Below are positions 85-63,982 of a stretch of DNA of 64,000 nt, piece after piece. Position numbers and translations under genes: made by a program. The first letter of the stretch is position 1; each line of letters starts with the position of its first letter. Source of the stretch: Bacillus sp. ISL-45 (GTDB taxonomy: Bacteria; Bacillota; Bacilli; Bacillales; Cytobacillaceae); the NCBI RefSeq assembly GCF_018613195.1, contig NZ_JAGGQQ010000005.1, forward strand, positions 91,593 through 155,592, in the 5' to 3' direction. The notes below the pieces were generated by a model that saw only the letters and a list, made by a program, of their open reading frames with translations, had not been told where the DNA came from and made no database searches.

Positions 85-741
85 TTACCTTCTTCTTTTT
101 TTTCTAAGAGTAGCACTAAAATTCCCTGCTACATTGGTGAATAGATTTAAAGGTATTTCTAAAGGGTACAACCCACCAATAACTATAGATTGATTATTTT
201 TATTATCATTCCTTCTTGCCTTTTCAATAATCTCTTCCAATAATTCTACTTGTTCACTATTCTTAATCTCTTCGTCTAGTGCAGCAAGCTTTTCTTTGTT
301 AAGTTTTATTTCTTCGAGTAAACGAATGATTTCTTTATTCTGATTAATTAAGTTGAGTACTCTGCTCTCATTTCTTTTAATTTGATCCTGTAAAAATAAA
401 CTTGTACTTGCCTTTATTACTAGAATTTCCATTTCCTTTTTTTGTTTATCCAGTTTGCTTAACTCAGTCTCTTTTAAGTTAAGTTCGCTTTTTTTTGAAT
501 TTAAATCCTCAGCAATTTTTGTAACTCTTTCGAGGCTTTGTATTTCTAGTATTTCTAAGTCTTTTGGTGTTAACTTCGGTAAGGCAAATGTTATTAACCC
601 GCATAATGTTGCAACTCCACCAACGATAGTTGCATACGAATTGTAAGTATTACTACTAATCCAATTTAACTTTACAGCAACGAAGCCCCCTATAAAATAT
701 AGAACACCTAATGTAATGATTGCCAACAAAATCTTTCTCAA
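85..741 (-). CDS. Membrane-anchored coiled-coil protein of unknown function (mobile element)
   Basis: The 218-residue protein is not recognised. Two hydrophobic segments near residues 4-24 and 37-55 look like a membrane hairpin. A long charged region rich in Lys, Glu and Leu (about 60-175) follows and should form coiled coil. The tail is basic and ends in KKRRR. The start is a TTG at 739-741 with a GGGGGA ribosome-binding site just upstream. It is transcribed away from the sigma-like gene and lies inside the integrated element that ends at 3720. It could be a superinfection, entry-exclusion or lysis-related protein, but nothing in the sequence decides this. Confidence 0.6.
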   Translation of the reverse strand: MRKILLAIITLGVLYFIGGFVAVKLNWISSNTYNSYATIVGGVATLCGLITFALPKLTPKDLEILEIQSLERVTKIAEDLNSKKSELNLKETELSKLDKQKKEMEILVIKASTSLFLQDQIKRNESRVLNLINQNKEIIRLLEEIKLNKEKLAALDEEIKNSEQVELLEEIIEKARRNDNKNNQSIVIGGLYPLEIPLNLFTNVAGNFSATLRKKRRR

Positions 742-818: not shown

Positions 819-848
819 TATCCAATAAAGTTTACTATCCGCGCCTAT
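819..848 (+). promoter_or_regulatory. Putative element-specific promoter, site 1
   Basis: CCAA at 822-825 is followed after 15 bp by GCGCCTAT at 841-848, 21 bp before the sigma-like gene. The same pair at the same spacing occurs at 1716/1735 and 2668/2687. It does not resemble a sigma-A promoter. That it is read by the element's own sigma-like protein is inference. Confidence 0.5.
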
Positions 849-869
849 CTTTTTAAAGGGGGTAGACGC

Positions 870-1586
870 ATGACAAAAATATTTAGTCCAGTCAATATTA
901 ACGAGAAAGAAAATACCAAGTCGAAAACTGAAACAAAGCTAGAGGGGCTAAGGCGGCGATACAAAAATCGTCCCTCTATAGATTACATTCTACAAATCGA
1001 AAAGTTATGGGAGCGTTATGCCTTAGAGCTAGATACTGCGAAAAAAGAACAACGCTTAGAAACGCTCTTAAAGCAGCTAAGTCATTCGATTAAGTGGCGG
1101 GCGAAAGAAGCGGGCAAACAATGGAACAATAGCCGCCTAAGCGCAGCAGACTTCGAGAGTATCTTTTTTGAGGAAGCATGGAAGCTATGCGATAACTATA
1201 ATCACTTCGGCGAGTTCTACTTCTACGAGACGCTATTACTCGTAATTAAGCGAAGAGGAATCGACCTAACAAGGAATCGGACAAGGACGCAGCAAGGCGC
1301 TTTCGAGCTTAAAGTTCGGCGATTAAAAGAAGAAGCTGCCGATTATATTCCAGACACGCAGACGGACGTAGAGGGCAGTTCTGTTAATAGCTTACTAGTT
1401 GCTCAGATTCTAGCCGTACCGACTTTAACGGAGCAGGAGCGCAAACTATTGCGAACTAAGTACGATAATCCCGACTTATCTAAAGTGGAACTTTCCAGTG
1501 CGTTAGGGCTCAAACATCATCAGGAAGTAACGAGGTTATTTAAAAGGCTTAAGATTAAATTAGCTGCATTCGATAATAAAAATTAA
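870..1586 (+). CDS. Sigma-70-like RNA polymerase sigma factor (phage/element type)
   Basis: The 238-residue protein looks like a small phage-type sigma factor. Residues about 85-150 (SAADFESIFFEEAW onward, ending in RRGIDLTR) resemble sigma region 2. The C-terminal part, about 185-235 (LTEQERKLL, then SALGLKHHQEVTRLFKRL), resembles the helix-turn-helix of region 4. Start ATG 870 follows AAAGGGGG at 855-862. It is the first plus-strand gene of the element's right end and is preceded by its own copy of a CCAA-N15-GCGCCTAT motif. The expected role is to direct RNA polymerase to element promoters, possibly including its own. A transcription-regulating homologue without core binding cannot be excluded. 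Confidence 0.65.
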   Translation: MTKIFSPVNINEKENTKSKTETKLEGLRRRYKNRPSIDYILQIEKLWERYALELDTAKKEQRLETLLKQLSHSIKWRAKEAGKQWNNSRLSAADFESIFFEEAWKLCDNYNHFGEFYFYETLLLVIKRRGIDLTRNRTRTQQGAFELKVRRLKEEAADYIPDTQTDVEGSSVNSLLVAQILAVPTLTEQERKLLRTKYDNPDLSKVELSSALGLKHHQEVTRLFKRLKIKLAAFDNKN

Positions 1587-1712
1587 TCGACTATCATAAC
1601 CTTTCCTTTTACTTCTACGCCTTCTCTTAGAGCTTTTTTCCCGTTCCAATACGTTATTTAATTCGTTAGCTCAGATAGACTTCGCACAAATTTTTTAAAA
1701 AATAATCTTTTA

Positions 1713-1742
1713 ATACCAAAGCTTAAAAGTAACAGCGCCTAT
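1713..1742 (+). promoter_or_regulatory. Putative element-specific promoter, site 2
   Basis: ATACCAAA at 1713-1720 and GCGCCTAT at 1735-1742 lie 49 bp upstream of the next start codon. CCAA to GCGCCTAT spacing is 15 bp, as in the other two sites. The rest of the gap 1587-1791 is AT-rich with no gene visible. Confidence 0.55.
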
Positions 1743-1791
1743 GGTTGTGTAAGGTGAGAACGCCTTAACAAAATAAAAGGGGCTAAGAGAA

Positions 1792-2418
1792 ATGACAAAC
1801 AAACTACCAAGATACGAACTATTCGAGAAGTACAACGAAGAGAAGCAGCAGGGCTTACAAGTGCAGCAGGAATATGCGGAGATGGTTACCGTAGCAGAGT
1901 TAGAAGTTAAGGGGCTAGAATACCGCTACAACGAGGCAATTAAGAAAGCTGTAGCAGAAGGCGCAGACAATCGAAAGGAGCTAGCTAAGATTAGGAAAGA
2001 GCAATCGGCAGCTATTGCCAATTTAGAACACGCTCGAGAAATGCAAAAAGCAGCACGGGCGATTAATAGCGGCTCGATCAGGCTAGAAGACTTAGAGAAC
2101 GGGTTAAAGGAGTATCAAACGAAGTTTCAGAATGAACACATCAATCCAGAAGTCAAGAAGCTCGAAAAGCTTAAAATCGAGTATCTTGTGCAGTTTATCG
2201 AAATTCAGCGTCGTATTAAGTTTTTCGAAGACGAAGCAAGGAAAGCTTTTAATACAATCAATCCCCGTTATGGCGGTTACACTATCCCTTACAGTGTAGG
2301 ATTCCAGACACAGCAGGCAATCGATAAAGTTTGCGTAACGAGCTACGACATACAGACGCTACAACGTGGAGAAGTGCCGAACAGCGTAAAGGAGCGATTA
2401 ACTAATGAGCGGATATAA
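1792..2418 (+). CDS. Coiled-coil hypothetical protein (mobile element)
   Basis: A 208-residue protein that I do not recognise. It is very rich in Glu, Lys, Gln and Ala up to about residue 155, which suggests a largely helical, coiled-coil structure. A short Tyr/Gly/Pro-containing C-terminal part (NPRYGGYTIPYSVGF) follows. There is no signal peptide or membrane segment. Start ATG 1792 has AAAAGGGG at 1775-1782 upstream. Its end overlaps the next gene by 14 bp, which suggests translational coupling. The codon choice (many CTA and TTA leucines, GCG and CGA) matches the neighbouring element genes and differs from the host genes after 4000. Confidence 0.6.
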   Translation: MTNKLPRYELFEKYNEEKQQGLQVQQEYAEMVTVAELEVKGLEYRYNEAIKKAVAEGADNRKELAKIRKEQSAAIANLEHAREMQKAARAINSGSIRLEDLENGLKEYQTKFQNEHINPEVKKLEKLKIEYLVQFIEIQRRIKFFEDEARKAFNTINPRYGGYTIPYSVGFQTQQAIDKVCVTSYDIQTLQRGEVPNSVKERLTNERI

Positions 2419-2626
2419 GAAACTACGGCTACAAGTCGAAGGAATCAAGAAAAAGCTACGGAGCGGCGAAAGTATTACGGCTAGCGAACTAGAAGCGATT
2501 AAGCAACAGGCTGCGATGAACTCTAGCACAGATAACTTAACGCTATACGCAGTAGCGAAGAAGCACGTAGAAGTAGCTAAGCTAGAAGAGAACGAACAGG
2601 ACACCGAAGAGCAACACGAAGAGTAA
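2405..2626 (+). CDS. Small acidic hypothetical protein (mobile element)
   Basis: A 73-residue charged protein without recognisable domain. The N-terminal third is basic (GYKKLRLQVEGIKKKLR), and the C-terminus is strongly acidic (EENEQDTEEQHEE), a polarity seen in small DNA- or protein-binding phage proteins. It overlaps the preceding gene by 14 bp and is followed directly by an intrinsic terminator, so the two genes form one transcription unit. Function unknown. Confidence 0.5.
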   Translation: MSGYKKLRLQVEGIKKKLRSGESITASELEAIKQQAAMNSSTDNLTLYAVAKKHVEVAKLEENEQDTEEQHEE

Positions 2627-2632
2627 GACCTA

Positions 2633-2663
2633 GAGTAGCGCTTAACGGCGTTACTCTTTTTTT
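2633..2663 (+). terminator. Intrinsic terminator
   Basis: The arms GAGTAGCGC (2633-2641) and GCGTTACTC (2648-2656) pair with one G-T wobble around a six-base loop and run into a T tract. It ends the 1792-2626 unit. The next putative promoter starts two bases later. Confidence 0.8.
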
Positions 2664-2664
2664 G

Positions 2665-2694
2665 ATACCAAAAGTGCTCGTAGCCTGCGCCTAT
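2665..2694 (+). promoter_or_regulatory. Putative element-specific promoter, site 3
   Basis: ATACCAAA at 2665-2672 and GCGCCTAT at 2687-2694 have exactly the same spacing as site 2. The site lies directly behind a terminator and 44 bp before the HNH gene, the position expected of a promoter. Confidence 0.55.
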
Positions 2695-2738: not shown

Positions 2739-3245
2739 ATGAACGCAAGGAGATATTTACGATTACTGGAACTAGTAGACAATGCGCAATACAAGGTAGA
2801 CGTAGAAGCAGGGACGATAATCGGGGTTAGGAATAAGCCACTTAAGCCGATTCTTGTAACAAACGGATATCACTACGTAAATTTGCACCACAACGGGAAA
2901 CATGGATTTTACACTGTTCACGAGCTAGTAGCTTTTTTCGCAGGGCTAGAAATTATCAACAAGCAAGTGAATCACATAAACGGTAACAAGACCGACAATA
3001 GGCTCGTAAACATAGAAACCGTAACAGCAGCCGAAAACCTACGGCACGCAAGGGAAACGGGCTTATGGAAGCCGAGCAAAGGCGCAAGAAGCGAAGTTAT
3101 CGTAAGGGAAATTAGAGCCAAATATTCGAAAGGTGACGTAACACAGGCAGAACTAGCGAAAGAGTACGGAATCCAACAAACGACAGTAAATAGAATCGTA
3201 AATCATAAATCATGGACGAAAGTAAACGAAGGGGAAAAACGATAA
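2739..3245 (+). CDS. HNH endonuclease with C-terminal helix-turn-helix
   Basis: The 168-residue protein belongs to the HNH homing-endonuclease-like family common in Bacillus phages. Residues about 45-110 carry the nuclease core: YHYVNLHHNGKHGFYTVHELVA, then NHINGNKTDNRLVNIE, with the histidines and asparagines of the beta-beta-alpha metal fold. Residues about 118-162 (REIRAKYSKGDVTQAELAKEYG, then QTTVNRIVNHKSW) form a DNA-binding helix-turn-helix. Start ATG 2739 follows ACGGGGGAT at 2722-2730. Its stop TAA shares one base with the ATG of the next gene (TAATG). Such enzymes are usually free-standing homing nucleases or help in phage DNA packaging. Which applies here is not visible. Confidence 0.8.
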   Translation: MNARRYLRLLELVDNAQYKVDVEAGTIIGVRNKPLKPILVTNGYHYVNLHHNGKHGFYTVHELVAFFAGLEIINKQVNHINGNKTDNRLVNIETVTAAENLRHARETGLWKPSKGARSEVIVREIRAKYSKGDVTQAELAKEYGIQQTTVNRIVNHKSWTKVNEGEKR

Positions 3246-3451
3246 TGAATCCTAAAGAACTAACATTCGAAGAGCTACAGATACAGGCAGAAGCAATCAG
3301 GCATAGAATCTACAAGACCATCAATAAACGCACGACTAAAGAAGAATTTACGATTCTCGAAGATTACGCAGAAAGAACGAACACAGACCGTAATTGGCGT
3401 GGAGTAGCGGTTGCCAGGCGTGAAAATGCCTACAGATATCGACCTAGATAA
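3245..3451 (+). CDS. Small hypothetical protein (mobile element)
   Basis: A 68-residue charged protein of unknown function, beginning MNPKELTFEELQIQAEAI. It is mainly helical, without membrane segment or recognisable motif. I chose ATG 3245 rather than the earlier in-frame 3212 because AAGGGG at 3230-3235 is well placed for it and the start overlaps the HNH stop as TAATG. It is the last gene of the element before the attachment site. Confidence 0.5.
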   Translation: MNPKELTFEELQIQAEAIRHRIYKTINKRTTKEEFTILEDYAERTNTDRNWRGVAVARRENAYRYRPR

Positions 3452-3596
3452 CAATGAGAAGACGTAGGCCAAAAGCTTACGTTTCTTTATTATCTTGTAG
3501 CAAAATTTAGGACTAAATGCGGCTATATGCTTGATAAAATAACACTTTCTTCATCTGAATAAGCGTGCTATAATGAAATTGGTCGAAAGTTCGGCA

Positions 3597-3670: not shown

Positions 3671-3720
3671 TACGCCTTCTAAGCGTACGGTCGGGAGTTC
3701 GAATCTCTCCTGGGACGCCA
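3671..3720 (+). other. Right attachment site: 3' half of tRNA-Arg(UCU)
   Basis: This stretch folds as the 3' half of a tRNA. Anticodon stem TACGC/GCGTA (3671-3675, 3683-3687) encloses the loop CTTCTAA with anticodon TCT at 3678-3680. A five-base variable loop, T arm GGGAG-TTCGAAT-CTCTC (3693-3709), acceptor strand CTGGGAC, discriminator G and CCA (3718-3720) follow. Upstream there is no D arm and no GTCCCAG acceptor strand, so it is not a full gene. Such a fragment is what a tRNA-targeting integrase leaves at the distal element end. The intact tRNA-Arg should lie to the left of the window. Confidence 0.8.
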
Positions 3721-5022: not shown

Positions 5023-5317
5023 AAAGCGAAGACAGGGACAAGTAATTTATTGCGATGAGCATGCACAGAGAGCCGGAGTTGCTGGGAACCGGCGATGCCG
5101 CGATAAGTGAACTCACCCTGGAGCGCCAGTTTGAAAGGAAACCTAGTAAAACTGGTCGAGTGTCCTGCACTTGTTATCAAAACCGGCAGCTGAAGCTGTC
5201 ACGAGTGCACGCATCATGCGTGAATAAGGGTGGTACCGTGGAACAAGGAGATAAAGCCTATTCCATCCCTTTGCCTGGGCAACCTTAGGCATATGGAGAT
5301 GGAGTGGGCTTTTTTAT
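5023..5317 (+). promoter_or_regulatory. T-box leader, leucine specific (ilv-leu)
   Basis: Between ilvE and ilvB lies a T-box riboswitch that senses uncharged tRNA-Leu. The base of stem I pairs ACAGGGA (5' side) with CACCCTG (3' side). In the internal loop next to it the specifier CTC (5112-5114) is followed by A, opposite an AAGTA loop-E motif. The AG-box-like GAGAGCC is near 5068. The T-box AAGGGTGGTACCGTGG at 5226-5241 pairs with the tRNA acceptor end. Uncharged tRNA should stabilise the antiterminator and let transcription enter ilvB. The CUC specifier agrees with the B. subtilis ilv-leu leader. Confidence 0.95.
5256..5316 (+). terminator. T-box attenuator terminator
   Basis: GCCTATTCCATC (5256-5267) pairs with GATGGAGTGGGC (5298-5309), with two G-T pairs, followed by a run of T. 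It is mutually exclusive with the T-box antiterminator. Confidence 0.9.
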
Positions 5318-7687: not shown

Positions 7688-10301
<2,614 letters not shown>

Positions 10302-11520: not shown

Positions 11521-12930
11521 TTGGGGAAAACGATCATCGAAAAAATTTGGGAGAAGCATATAGTTAGTACGGAGGAAGGCAAACCAGACCTTATGTATAT
11601 TGACCTCCATCTTGTTCACGAGGTAACCTCCCCGCAGGCTTTTTCGGGACTAAGGCAGAAAAAACGGTCTGTCCGACGCCCGGATTTGACGTTTGCGACG
11701 ATGGACCACAATGTACCAACAGTTAACCGGCGTGAGATCACTGATGCTGTTGCGAAAATCCAGATGGATACCTTAAGGAATAATTGTCTTGAATTCGGCA
11801 TTGCACTGGCGGACCTAGACAGTCCTGAACAGGGCATCGTCCATGTCATCGGACCTGAATTGGGATTGACACAGCCGGGAATGACGATTGTTTGCGGGGA
11901 CAGCCATACGTCTACGCATGGTGCGTTCGGAGCGCTCGCATTCGGAATTGGCACCAGCGAGGTTGAACATGTGCTGGCAACTCAAACACTCTGGCAGACA
12001 AAGCCAAAGACACTGAAAGTTGAGGTTTCTGGTTCTCTTGCACCGGGGGTGAGTGCAAAGGATCTCATCCTATCCATTATCAGTAAATATGGAGTCAATT
12101 TCGGTACTGGTTACGTGATTGAATTTTGCGGCGAGGCGATCAGGAAGATGTCGATGGAGGAAAGGATGACCATCTGCAATATGTCTATTGAAGGAGGAGC
12201 CAAGGCTTCCCTCGTTGCCCCTGATGACAAAACCTTCGCTTATCTGAATGGAAGAAAATATGTTGCACAGGGAGATGCCTACCTCGATAAGATCCTTGAA
12301 TGGCAGCAGCTCAGCTCTGATGATGATGCGGAGTATGACCATACCATCACGGTAGATGGCGACTCCATTTCACCGATGGTCAGCTGGGGTACGAACCCTT
12401 CGATGACTGCTCCAGTAACAGAGAGAGTCCCTTATCTGGCAGAATGTGAGACTGAGGCAGAAAGGAAGTCCGTTCAAAGAGCGTTTGATTACATGGGCCT
12501 GGCAGAAGGCCAGCTGATTACAGATATTAATGTAACTAAAGTCTTTATCGGTTCCTGCACAAATTCAAGACTGGAGGATCTCAGGGCAGCGGCCGACGTC
12601 GTCAAAGGTAAAAAAGTGGCCACAGGAGTCGATGCGATTGTCGTACCTGGCTCCCAGCAGGTCAAGAAGGCGGCAGAAGCAGAAGGTATCGCCAAAATTT
12701 TTATTGAAGCAGGATTTGAATGGCGGGAATCCGGCTGCAGCATGTGCCTGAGTATGAACGCAGACATTGTACCAGCTGGCGAGCACTGTGCTTCCACTTC
12801 AAACCGGAATTTTGAGGGCAGACAGGGAGCCGGAGCGCGCACCCATTTAGTCAGTCCCGCCATGGCAGCAGCTGCCGCACTTCATGGGCATTTTGTCGAT
12901 GTCAGGTCGGTGGCTGGCATTACCGTTTAA
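11521..12930 (+). CDS. leuC: 3-isopropylmalate dehydratase, large subunit
   Basis: The [4Fe-4S] subunit of isopropylmalate isomerase works with LeuD to turn 2- into 3-isopropylmalate. Cluster cysteines are visible in IGSCTNSR (about 344) and in [10 protein letters not shown] (about 404-407). The aconitase N-terminus [13 protein letters not shown] and [25 protein letters not shown] are also clear. I chose TTG 11521 (469 residues) over the upstream ATG 11488. AAAGGGGAGG at 11505-11514 is then properly spaced and the protein begins as in B. subtilis. Unlike in B. subtilis, a 271-bp gap with tandem repeats separates it from leuD. Confidence 0.96.
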
Positions 12931-61699: not shown

Positions 61700-63154
61700 A
61701 TGAACCAATTAATTATCAATGCAAATTCGAGAGAAAAGCGCTTCGCTATGGTCAAGAATGGCGAAGTCGAAAAAATATATATTGAACAGCCGGGCCAGGA
61801 ATCGCTGGTCGGGAATGTCTACCTTGGCATTGTCGAAAAAGTTATTCCAGGGATGAATGCGGCATTCGTCAATTTTGGCGAAGAAATAAGCGGCTTCCTG
61901 CAGAAAGATAAGCTCCCATCCTATGTACTTTCAGATGACGAAAATAAAGCGAATCGTTCAATCTCTTCCTATGTCCACCAAGGAGAAAAGCTGCTGGTAC
62001 AGGTTGAAAAAGATGCGGCCGGGACAAAAGGGGCAAGGCTGACAGGAATCATCGAATTACAGGGTGATAACCTTGTCTATATGCCTCACGGAAAATACAT
62101 AGCTGTATCTAAAAAGGCAGAATCACCAGAAACAAGGGATAAATGGAGAGAATTCGCCAGCCAGGTTAAAACGCCTGAAGAAGGCCTCATTTTCAGGACT
62201 GAAAGCCTGAGTCAGACAGAGCAAGTCATCTTGCGTGAGCTGGAACAGCAGCGGGATCAATACGCTCAAATGGTAAAGTCCATTTCAGCCATGAAGAAGC
62301 CGGGGATCGTTCACAGCCGTGACTACTTTTTTGAGCAGGCGATGGCGGCACTTCTATCTGTTGAAAATGTGGAAGTGATCACAGATTGTCTCGATATGAA
62401 AAAAAGAATTCAGCAGAATCATCCAGAAGGTATAGAGTCAGAGTTTTATAATGGCAAAGAAAATATTTTCTCCTTTTATAAAATCGAGCAAGAAATCGAG
62501 CGGCTGCTAAAAAAGATGGTCTGGCTGGATAAAGGAGCCTACATGGTCATTGACCAGGGTGAGGCACTTACAATGATCGATGTGAACACAGGAAAGTTTT
62601 CCGGCAAAACGGATCTTCGTGACACTGTCACGAAAACGAATCTGAATGCTGCAGTCGAAGCGGCAAGGCAAATCAGGCTCAGAGATCTTGCAGGCATCAT
62701 TCTGATTGATTTTATTGATATGAAGAATGATAGTGAACGGAACAAGGTGCAGAAACTCATTCAAAAAGAGCTGCTCCAGGATGAGCGGCGGACAAGGATC
62801 ATCGGCTTTACCGAGCTGGGAATCCTTCAGCTGACGAGAAAGAAAACGAAGCAGTCGCTGGCCGAGACGCTGACTGAAAAATGCTGGACATGCGGAGGTA
62901 CGGGGCAGGTGCTGAGCTCGGAAACCGTTGCATACAGACTTGAGCGCTCGTTGTGGGAATACAAAAATTCTGAATATGAAGTAGTTCTCATAGCAGCGAC
63001 GAATGAGGTCATCAAGCATTTTTCCGGTGAGGCCGATATCCATAAACTGAGGCTTGAAAAAGCACTGGGCCTTAAGATAAAATTCTCGTTGTCAGATGCG
63101 GCGAAACCTTTTTATGAAATCCTTAAGGTTGGTGCTTTGACAGAATCAGGTTGA
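61700..63154 (+). CDS. rng: Ribonuclease E/G family protein
   Basis: A 484-residue endoribonuclease for rRNA and mRNA processing. The S1 domain (about 35-125; GNVYLGIVEKVIPGMNAAFVNFG in part), the RNase H-like and 5'-sensor region and the DNase I-like core with catalytic aspartates in MIDVNTGKFSG and ILIDFIDMKND are present. The zinc-link is CWTCGGTG near 395. Start ATG 61700 follows AGGGAG at 61688-61693. B. subtilis lacks this family and relies on RNase Y and J. Other Bacillaceae carry rng before rplU, as here. Confidence 0.93.
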   Translation: MNQLIINANSREKRFAMVKNGEVEKIYIEQPGQESLVGNVYLGIVEKVIPGMNAAFVNFGEEISGFLQKDKLPSYVLSDDENKANRSISSYVHQGEKLLVQVEKDAAGTKGARLTGIIELQGDNLVYMPHGKYIAVSKKAESPETRDKWREFASQVKTPEEGLIFRTESLSQTEQVILRELEQQRDQYAQMVKSISAMKKPGIVHSRDYFFEQAMAALLSVENVEVITDCLDMKKRIQQNHPEGIESEFYNGKENIFSFYKIEQEIERLLKKMVWLDKGAYMVIDQGEALTMIDVNTGKFSGKTDLRDTVTKTNLNAAVEAARQIRLRDLAGIILIDFIDMKNDSERNKVQKLIQKELLQDERRTRIIGFTELGILQLTRKKTKQSLAETLTEKCWTCGGTGQVLSSETVAYRLERSLWEYKNSEYEVVLIAATNEVIKHFSGEADIHKLRLEKALGLKIKFSLSDAAKPFYEILKVGALTESG

Positions 63155-63177
63155 GCCAAAGAACATGTATTATTATG

Positions 63178-63205
63178 TTGACACTTTCGCTAAACATATG
63201 ATAAT
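63178..63205 (+). promoter_or_regulatory. Sigma-A promoter of rplU
   Basis: A perfect TTGACA (63178-63183), a 16-bp spacer and GATAAT (63200-63205) precede the L21 leader by about 18 bp. Confidence 0.75.
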
Positions 63206-63223
63206 ATTTTAATGTTATTGTTT

Positions 63224-63300
63224 GTAGCACCCGTGCTACAACCGCACACTTCAGGTATTTAAGCTTTGCAAATTCGCAAACGCCTGCGGTTGGCGAGTCT
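63224..63300 (+). promoter_or_regulatory. Ribosomal protein L21 leader RNA
   Basis: GTAGCAC/GTGCTAC (63224-63230, 63233-63239) forms one hairpin. AACCGCA/TGCGGTT (63240-63246, 63285-63291) encloses a second hairpin TTTGC/GCAAA (63274-63288 region). The place, order and sequence agree with the L21 leader of Firmicutes, thought to mediate feedback by L21. Confidence 0.8.
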
Positions 63301-63325
63301 GAGTCTAATGAGGAGGTGCAATGGA

Positions 63326-63634
63326 ATGTACGCAATTATCGAAACTGGCGGCAAGCAAGTAAAGGTAGAAGAAGGACAAGCAATCTACATTGAAAAGCTG
63401 AACGCTACTGAAGGCGAAACTGTAACTTTTGACAAGGTTCTTTTTGTAGGTGGCGATAACGTTAAAGTTGGTAGCCCAGTAGTTGAAGGCGCAACTGTAA
63501 CTGCTAAAGTTGAAAAGAACGGCCGTCAAAAGAAAATCATCGTTTTCAAGTACAAAGCGAAAAAGAACAATCGTAAGAAGCAAGGTCATCGTCAGCCTTA
63601 CACTAAAGTTGTTATTGAAAAGATCAACGCTTAA
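63326..63634 (+). CDS. rplU: 50S ribosomal protein L21
   Basis: The 102-residue protein binds 23S rRNA domain [21 protein letters not shown] at the N-terminus and [22 protein letters not shown] at the basic C-terminus (partly quoted) are typical. ATG 63326 follows GGAGGTG at 63311-63317. The longer frame from 63266 covers the leader RNA and is not used. First gene of the L21-Prp-L27 operon. Confidence 0.98.
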
Positions 63635-63649
63635 TTAAGGCAGATTACC

Positions 63650-63982
63650 ATGATTCGTGCAACGATTAATCGTACAAAATCCGGAAGCATCCAATCGTTT
63701 ACGATTAGCGGCCACGCTGGATTCGCTGCCCATGGCAGTGACATTGTCTGTGCAGGTGTTTCGACCATCTCGATCGGGACTGTCAATTCCATCATTGGTT
63801 TGACAGGTATCACCCCTGACATTGAACAAGGCGCCGACGGTTTTCTCCGCTGTGAAATCCCCGACAATTTGCCGGCGGATACACAGGAGAAAATCCAACT
63901 GCTCCTCGAAAGCATGGTCATTACATTGCAATCGATGGAAAAAGAGTACGGAAAGCATATAAAATTAACCTTCAAACAGTAG
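63650..63982 (+). CDS. ysxB: Ribosomal-processing cysteine protease Prp
   Basis: The 110-residue protease removes the N-terminal extension of L27 in Firmicutes. The active-site signature SGHAGFAAHGSDIVCAGVS holds the catalytic His and Cys near residues 22 and 34. It is encoded between rplU and rpmA, as in all known cases. ATG 63650 lies 15 bp after rplU. Confidence 0.96.
   Translation: MIRATINRTKSGSIQSFTISGHAGFAAHGSDIVCAGVSTISIGTVNSIIGLTGITPDIEQGADGFLRCEIPDNLPADTQEKIQLLLESMVITLQSMEKEYGKHIKLTFKQ

Follow-up and report, generated by a model that had tools for sequence, protein, structure and literature searches.

Does a chromosomal island of 8.19 kb encode both a sigma factor and the promoters that this factor reads? 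The question arises from a 64,000-nucleotide stretch of the Bacillus sp. ISL-45 genome (contig NZ_JAGGQQ010000005.1, positions 91,593 to 155,592; the whole stretch is called the window here), whose first part belongs to a mobile island in a tRNA-Arg gene. The island carries a gene for a sigma-70-like protein at 870-1586 and three promoter-like sites of the form CCAA-N15-GCGCCTAT. It probably encodes a sigma factor resembling SigN of the Bacillus subtilis plasmid pBS32, and this factor would read the three bipartite promoters of the island, that of its own gene included, on the host core polymerase.

Three bipartite sites and a sigma-like gene in a tRNA-Arg island

The mobile nature of the region, proposed in a first-pass annotation made from the sequence alone, is borne out by att repeats in tRNA-Arg, a tyrosine integrase (PF00589, E=3e-31, Pfam) and a serine recombinase (PF00239, E=9e-41, Pfam). 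The island lies in tRNA-Arg(TCT), an intact copy of which is found at L004:15046-15120, and is flanked by identical 48-bp att repeats that are 8191 bp apart from start to start. Its right half is inside the window; the left part, outside it, reaches attL at 87072 of the contig.

The three sites listed in the annotation were located at 822-848, 1716-1742 and 2668-2694, with exactly 15 bp between the blocks, and the observation of CCAA-N15-GCGCCTAT is confirmed. Two of them have the longer upstream block ATACCAAA, starting at 1713 and 2665, and a separate transcription unit stands behind each site. Between the end of site 1 (848) and the ATG of the sigma gene (870) there is the claimed gap of 21 bp. 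The terminator ahead of site 3 is genuine, with a hairpin and a T run, but it is separated from ATACCAAA by one base and not, as had been claimed, by two. In the whole genome (4,596,485 bases, 27 contigs), CCAA-N15-GCGCCTAT has three matches, all on one strand and all within the island, and none was obtained in 2000 dinucleotide shuffles of the island. When 193 genomes of the family were scanned, the pattern was found at 34 places in 29 genomes. Nine of these matches are in regions of the island kind (three each in G000 and G367, one in G485 and two in G511), and the remaining 25 are singletons; a reversed control pattern gave 19, so that the background is about 0.1 per genome.

Two smaller observations concern the same DNA. 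A weak fourth match (GCAAAATTTAGGACTAAATGCGGCTAT) at window positions 3500-3526, near the right end and with no obvious gene behind it, is kept in a sister island at L006:10630. The leader of the sigma gene, GGGGGTAGACGCAT (window 856-871), is repeated near L004 18408, about 200 bp 5' of the serine recombinase gene.

The protein encoded at 870-1586 is very probably a divergent sigma-70 factor, as the annotation had supposed. The NCBIfam model sigma70-ECF (extracytoplasmic function; TIGR02937) matches it with E=9.2e-7 and 28.6 bits over model positions 3-161 of 165, and matches six of the seven island-type proteins submitted at E<=0.0022, the protein of the L020 region being unmatched. By eye, the protein has a region 2.2-like segment (ADFESIFFEEAWKL), a 2.4-like segment (RRGIDLTR) and a C-terminal helix-turn-helix (HTH), with a short linker between as in ECF sigma factors and seemingly no room for region 3. 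A profile of 11 island and plasmid relatives (the A1 profile) detects SigN of pBS32, at 24.3 bits and E=2e-6 among 2000 shuffled decoys, the best of which reached 8.2. A scan of PHROG gave nothing useful for the protein, and a search of PDB sequences with A1 returned no sigma factor among its five hits, which are four HTH regions of other regulators and one siderophore enzyme.

Relatives of the protein were found at three loci in a collection of 84,980 species by a pattern scan that reaches close relatives only, and in eight of 397 genomes of the order, its own included. Five Paenibacillus polymyxa plasmids also carry relatives, and four of the five records name a sigma-70 family factor. A class-wide profile search at E<=1e-5 matched 13 of 398 genomes, again with its own; the weak matches (E 1e-5 to 1e-8) were not counted as relatives and may be ordinary host sigma factors (L230 is SigH-like by eye), and the stronger ones (L226-L229) were inspected for motifs by eye. 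By tblastn, the protein has no match in phages and no relative in viral contigs.

Sites and putative sigma genes in related islands and phages

The annotation had made its proposal depend on conservation of the motif beside homologous sigma genes, and in related elements the motif is indeed conserved there, adjoining sigma homologues that are 77% identical (with a degenerate copy) and 68% identical. The sister islands L006 and L007 adjoin the same tRNA; L006 is carried by Mesobacillus selenatarsenatis, whose genus is also that of the window genome, and genome G367 falls in the same genus. All three sites are kept in L006. Two are exact in L007, which has a degenerate CCAT-N15-GCGCCCAT at the matching place 5' of its sigma gene. 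In L008, the site of the sigma gene is exact and a weaker site (GCGACTAT) follows a 236-aa gene. The region L055 of genome G511 has three sites, at 9689, 9920 (degenerate) and 12619, the last of them 5' of an HNH gene 48% identical to that of the window. A sigma protein 46-48% identical to that of the island is encoded in another mobile region, L020, from which the GCGCC motif is absent and in which TTGTCTTT-N13-TTGCAAGTNCTTCT occurs twice, 5' of the sigma gene and 5' of the next unit.

Some further sequences were noticed around these loci. Between the first site of L055 and the next terminator-like run (L055 9716-9850) are about 120 bp in which no gene is evident by eye, and this segment may give a short RNA instead of the sigma gene that is lacking. 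Upstream of distant sigma homologues in three genomes (L021 10382, minus strand; L022 9475, plus strand; L024 10538, minus strand), TGACAAA-N12 to 16-CGAATATA is followed by a palindrome of the GGTG-NNN-CACC type, and the combination looks like a shared promoter plus operator. For the DNA 5' of 11 sigma genes, an ungapped self-comparison lacked the sensitivity to be of use.

The same promoter type recurs in two phage contigs. CCNR-N15-GCGCCNA occurs 17 times in G576 (64,305 bp) and 16 times in G580 (62,106 bp), on one strand only and never on the other; the first and last matches in G576 represent the same site, which is present at both ends of the contig, so that each contig has 16 sites. A start resembling that behind a ribosome-binding site (RBS) lies 15-56 nt downstream of 31 of these 33 matches (lenient pattern), one of the other two being at a contig end, and five of the 33 are inside a mechanically called open reading frame (ORF) of more than 100 aa. 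A looser matrix made from eight island sites gives one match on the opposite strand of G580. In a blind statistic, CCAA-N15-GCGCCT was observed 11 times in G576 against 0.069 expected. One site in each contig is 5' of a candidate sigma gene, for a protein of 206 or 242 aa (63103-63723 in G576), which, as the gene order reads, is placed like the annotated sigma factors of the Bacillus phages 268TH002 and KLEB27-1. The profile of the candidates finds gp51 of KLEB27-1 with E=1.4e-9. The candidates belong to PHROG 27067, and gp51, annotated as 'RNA polymerase sigma factor', belongs to PHROG 24888; both families are listed as 'unknown function', and the comparison suggests that their function is that of a phage sigma factor.

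A different motif accompanies an island-type sigma factor in the phage contig G588 (70,125 bp), the sole match of the A1 profile among 13 viral records (E=4.9e-9). Here CGCG-N15-GCGACAT is present seven times on the gene strand and, with the longer block TGCGCGA, seven times versus none on the opposite strand; one copy ends just 5' of the sigma ATG at 12596, within 40 bp. Its block GCGACATA resembles GCGCCTAT of the island, and the spacing is identical (N15). To judge from G588 and, with less certainty, L020, the sequences of sigma and promoter change jointly under a constant two-block layout. One of the seven copies (L117 11717) is within a 427-aa gene upstream of the sigma gene.

Six records were tested blind, and a strongly enriched motif with a copy no more than 130 bp from the sigma gene was obtained in G576, G580 and G588. 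As a positive control, the method ranked the SigN promoters top in a stretch of pBS32 (TTAC-N15-GATATA, 18 copies, the copy of sigN itself being degenerate). It gave no enriched motif for KLEB27-1. In phage phi18-2, GTCC-N16-ACGCAT has four copies, one of them 5' of an annotated-type sigma gene, and was not counted, its score of -6.9 being at the level of shuffled controls (-6.7 and -6.8). In phi18-2 and KLEB27-1 (L104 and L106), the sigma gene comes after an AimR-type or other regulator gene and has TATATGGACATGRAAGAAAA, common to both, at its 5' side, which is possibly a regulator site.

Viral contigs were also scanned with two other forms of the motif. A stricter pattern matched 95 stretches, and several matches per contig were seen only in G576 among the 80 of these 95 that were listed. 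ATACCAA-N15-GCGCCTAT was found in 26 stretches, of which the phage-like contig L066 alone was taken up, because its two sites are 5' of an HTH gene and 5' of a replication operon; the other 25 were dropped after their sites had been inspected and tblastn with the island proteins had returned one integrase match only (L058). The DnaC-like protein of L066 led to 17 viral loci, its own contig included and G576 and G580 among the others, and in the stretches examined at least two good-scoring sites on the same strand occur only in the locus of L066 itself, in L088 and in L092. Besides its two GCGCC sites, L066 has, on the minus strand, several genes preceded by what look by eye like sigma-A promoters, TTGACAG...TATAGGTATA.

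Which factor reads the sites

We infer that the island sigma would bind the host core RNA polymerase, competing for it, and would read CCAA(A)-N15-GCGCCTAT before its own gene, giving positive feedback; autoregulation through site 1 is the best reading of the arrangement. The same factor would switch on the 208/73-aa operon and the HNH/69-aa operon. First would come a start signal, low-level or inducible, after which the loop would commit the island to a programme in the manner of pBS32. The purpose is perhaps excision or mobilisation and transfer, a guess suggested by the HNH nuclease gene among the predicted targets.

A private sigma factor with private promoters on a mobile element is a known kind of system, because SigN (ZpdN) of pBS32 precedes it: sigma and promoters were proven in vitro and by Rend-seq (PMC6751061), and SigN is also treated in a further paper (PMC10601692). 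SigN and the putative island factor are both small, divergent sigmas on a mobile replicon, a phage-like plasmid there and a tRNA-Arg island here. In both, a promoter of the own type, predicted for the island, stands before the own gene with N15 between the blocks, and the regulon is largely confined to the replicon, which for the island means, at the level of sequence, that all three genomic matches are within it and one is before the sigma gene. SigN is found by the island family profile, but there is no pairwise similarity. The promoters differ, TTAC-N15-GATATA in pBS32 versus CCAA-N15-GCGCCTAT in the island, and so does the scale, an 84-kb plasmid with 19 listed promoters versus an 8-kb island with three. 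The pBS32 loop is started from a LexA-repressed sigma-A promoter, and no such start was seen in the island.

Several results weigh against the motif as such or against a SigN-like factor that reads the island's own promoters. The NCBIfam score of the protein is under the curated cut-off of 42.9 bits, Pfam gives no match, and phmmer with SigN fails to separate the protein from decoys, so that the link runs through the profile only. When two mismatches are allowed, the 64-kb window has 6 matches versus a shuffle mean of 3.6, and thus only exact matches stand out. A bipartite 4+8-mer motif with three copies, sought blindly, arises in 19 of 150 island shuffles; the case therefore rests on placement before genes and conservation in relatives, not on repetition alone. 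With two copies only, the L020 motif falls short of significance in the blind test (10^-4.2, rank 158), and the other seven sigma loci of the A1 set (L018, L019, L021-L025) have no GCGCC-type site or enriched motif 5' of the sigma gene, the strongly repeated DNA of L019 having no part there. One CGCG-N15-GCGACAT lies on the opposite strand of G588. A LexA-like box, GAACN4GTTC, is absent from the island, so that a trigger of the pBS32 type is not seen, and only weak sigma-A-like matches lie upstream, at 671 and 785. The candidate sigma factors of G576 and G580 share the promoter type, yet no Pfam or NCBIfam sigma model recognises them and the island profile gives nothing above decoy level, so that they have no detectable relation to the island sigma. 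Finally, the L055 region has sites but no detectable sigma of the island or phage type, and an A1 search of the whole G511 genome gave a SigI-like protein and two HTH proteins only; either the region has decayed, or a factor of outside origin reads its promoters.

The proposal of the annotation thus finds partial support. The term 'self-contained', which it had applied to the system, is not supported, since the promoter type also occurs outside the island (16 copies each in G576 and G580) and the G511 region keeps sites without a detectable sigma. Mainly through the G511 region, two further readings stay alive. The first, which is possible but doubtful, is that CCNR-N15-GCGCCTA is a promoter language common to a phage lineage and to chromosomal islands, each with its own diverged sigma, or with promoters only, as in G511, awaiting the sigma of another element. 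If this were true, sigma exchange would be a route by which mobile elements communicate with and parasitise one another without involving the host.

The second, rather unlikely, is that the island is a phage satellite whose sites serve mainly the sigma of an infecting G576/G580-type phage, so that infection switches the island on; the island sigma would then be a spare, a starter or something acquired later. The recurrence of the promoter type in both phage contigs, with one copy 5' of each sigma candidate, would fit, as would the lack of a sigma in the G511 region, whose recombinase is 48% and 44% identical to those of the two phages. Phage satellites often carry defence genes, and the G511 and L020 regions have such genes (type IIG restriction-modification and AbiJ). 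However, of the four regions that have CCAA/GCGCCTAT sites, three hold a sigma gene behind a site (G000 and L006, which are near-identical, count as one; the L007 site is degenerate), a search of five host genomes gave no convincing phage-type sigma (best E 0.06), and no replication or packaging-interference gene of the phage-inducible chromosomal island (PICI) type was recognised.

That a DNA-binding repressor or activator uses the motif as its operator, while host sigma-A does the transcribing, is improbable. Short fixed blocks would suit an operator, and in L055 an HTH_36 protein is encoded behind a site, but the motif is non-palindromic and has one fixed orientation to genes, 31 of 33 phage matches are 15-56 nt 5' of an RBS-like start, and no good sigma-A -10 element is present at the motif.

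The annotation had also stated that the motif resembles no sigma-A, ECF, sigma-B or sigma-F consensus known to it. This claim of novelty has to be qualified: the C-rich and A-rich upstream block and the spacing recall sigma-I and sigma-28 promoters, and the -10 block is different. Sigma-28 promoters have the form TAAA-N15-GCCGATAA. The sigma-I promoters of Bacillales, given as ACCCCC--AA N15 CGAA (PMC4711584), share with the sites a C-rich and A-rich -35 block and a similar spacing, and the profile of the island sigma has a weak region-2 similarity to a SigI-like protein. Reading of the sites by a host alternative sigma such as SigI is nevertheless very improbable. The best A1 match in G511 is a putative SigI (E=0.0018, 18.9 bits), so called by eye because an RsgI-like gene follows it, but the motif is absent elsewhere in the 4.6-Mb host genome and its -10 block, GCGCCTAT, is without the CGWA of sigma-I. 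SigI has an RsgI partner, unlike the island factor, and its C-terminal domain is not a sigma4 (PMC10575876).

Group IV (ECF) factors share the two-region layout with the island sigma, and sigma70-ECF is its best named model. It differs from them in its score under the cut-off and in that the scans of this analysis recognised no anti-sigma gene. ECF promoters are of the GGAAC/CGTC type, and those of the island are unlike it. Chance repetition without function, which the 19 of 150 shuffles with some threefold 4+8-mer might favour, is hardly credible and is already contradicted by conservation before genes in L006, L007, L008, L055, L066, G576 and G580.

Among the matches listed in the open PMC literature, there is no record of the motif CCAA-N15-GCGCCTAT, of the 8-kb format or of sharing between island and phage, and a text search for GCGCCTAT gave no title on such a promoter among those listed. 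SigN is a single well-studied earlier case, and the same logic now appears in an 8-kb island whose promoter code is a different one, found again in two phage contigs. Islands such as this may switch on their own genes separately from the host, and both sigma-promoter co-evolution and cross-talk between islands and phages become directly testable.

Gene content of the island and adjoining features

From the left end, the island has genes for the tyrosine integrase, three proteins including SHOCT and SEC-C ones, the serine recombinase, a small ORF and a 218-aa protein, followed by the sigma gene, the 208/73-aa pair and the HNH/69-aa pair (Table 1). The genes between integrase and serine recombinase vary among the sister islands, and of two regions that are less closely related, L055 has a type IIG restriction enzyme and L020 has AbiJ; on these grounds the segment looks like a cargo slot.

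Table 1. Coordinates of the island features that lie in the window
Feature	Position	Strand	Remarks
218-aa protein, hydrophobic N-terminus by eye, divergent from sigma gene	85..741	-	ORF; no accepted family
Promoter-like site 1, CCAA-N15-GCGCCTAT	822..848	+	21 bp 5' of sigma gene; exact at matching place in L006 and L008; degenerate in L007
Divergent sigma-70-like protein, 238 aa, putative island sigma factor	870..1586	+	TIGR02937; family profile finds SigN; no Pfam match
Promoter-like site 2, ATACCAAA...GCGCCTAT	1713..1742	+	Core exact in L006 and L007
208-aa protein, coiled-coil-like by eye, first gene behind site 2	1792..2418	+	No accepted family; 76% identical homologue in L007
73-aa protein, second gene behind site 2	2405..2626	+	No accepted family; homologue in L007
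Intrinsic terminator ending the site-2 unit	2631..2663	+	Hairpin -15.6 kcal/mol, then T run
Promoter-like site 3, ATACCAAA...GCGCCTAT	2665..2694	+	Core exact in L006 and L007, and 5' of homologous HNH gene in L055
HNH endonuclease with C-terminal HTH	2739..3245	+	HNH_3 E=3e-8; phrog_59 E=5e-32
69-aa protein behind HNH gene	3242..3451	+	ORF; no accepted family; homologue in L006
attR, 48-bp copy of 3' part of tRNA-Arg(TCT)	3671..3718	+	Identical repeat

In the 12 island ORFs submitted to Pfam, no structural phage gene, relaxase or replication gene was recognised, and none of the ORFs gave a significant match to a capsid or tail family. The integrase, the att site in a tRNA gene and the lack of structural genes would fit a PICI; a replication module (primase or rep) or packaging-interference genes of that type were not recognised in the Pfam and PHROG scans, and the island was not filed as one. 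In the host DNA outside the island, a T-box-like leader (GGTGGTACCGTGG and a terminator) was noticed by eye at window positions 5040-5310, 5' of a branched-chain amino-acid operon.

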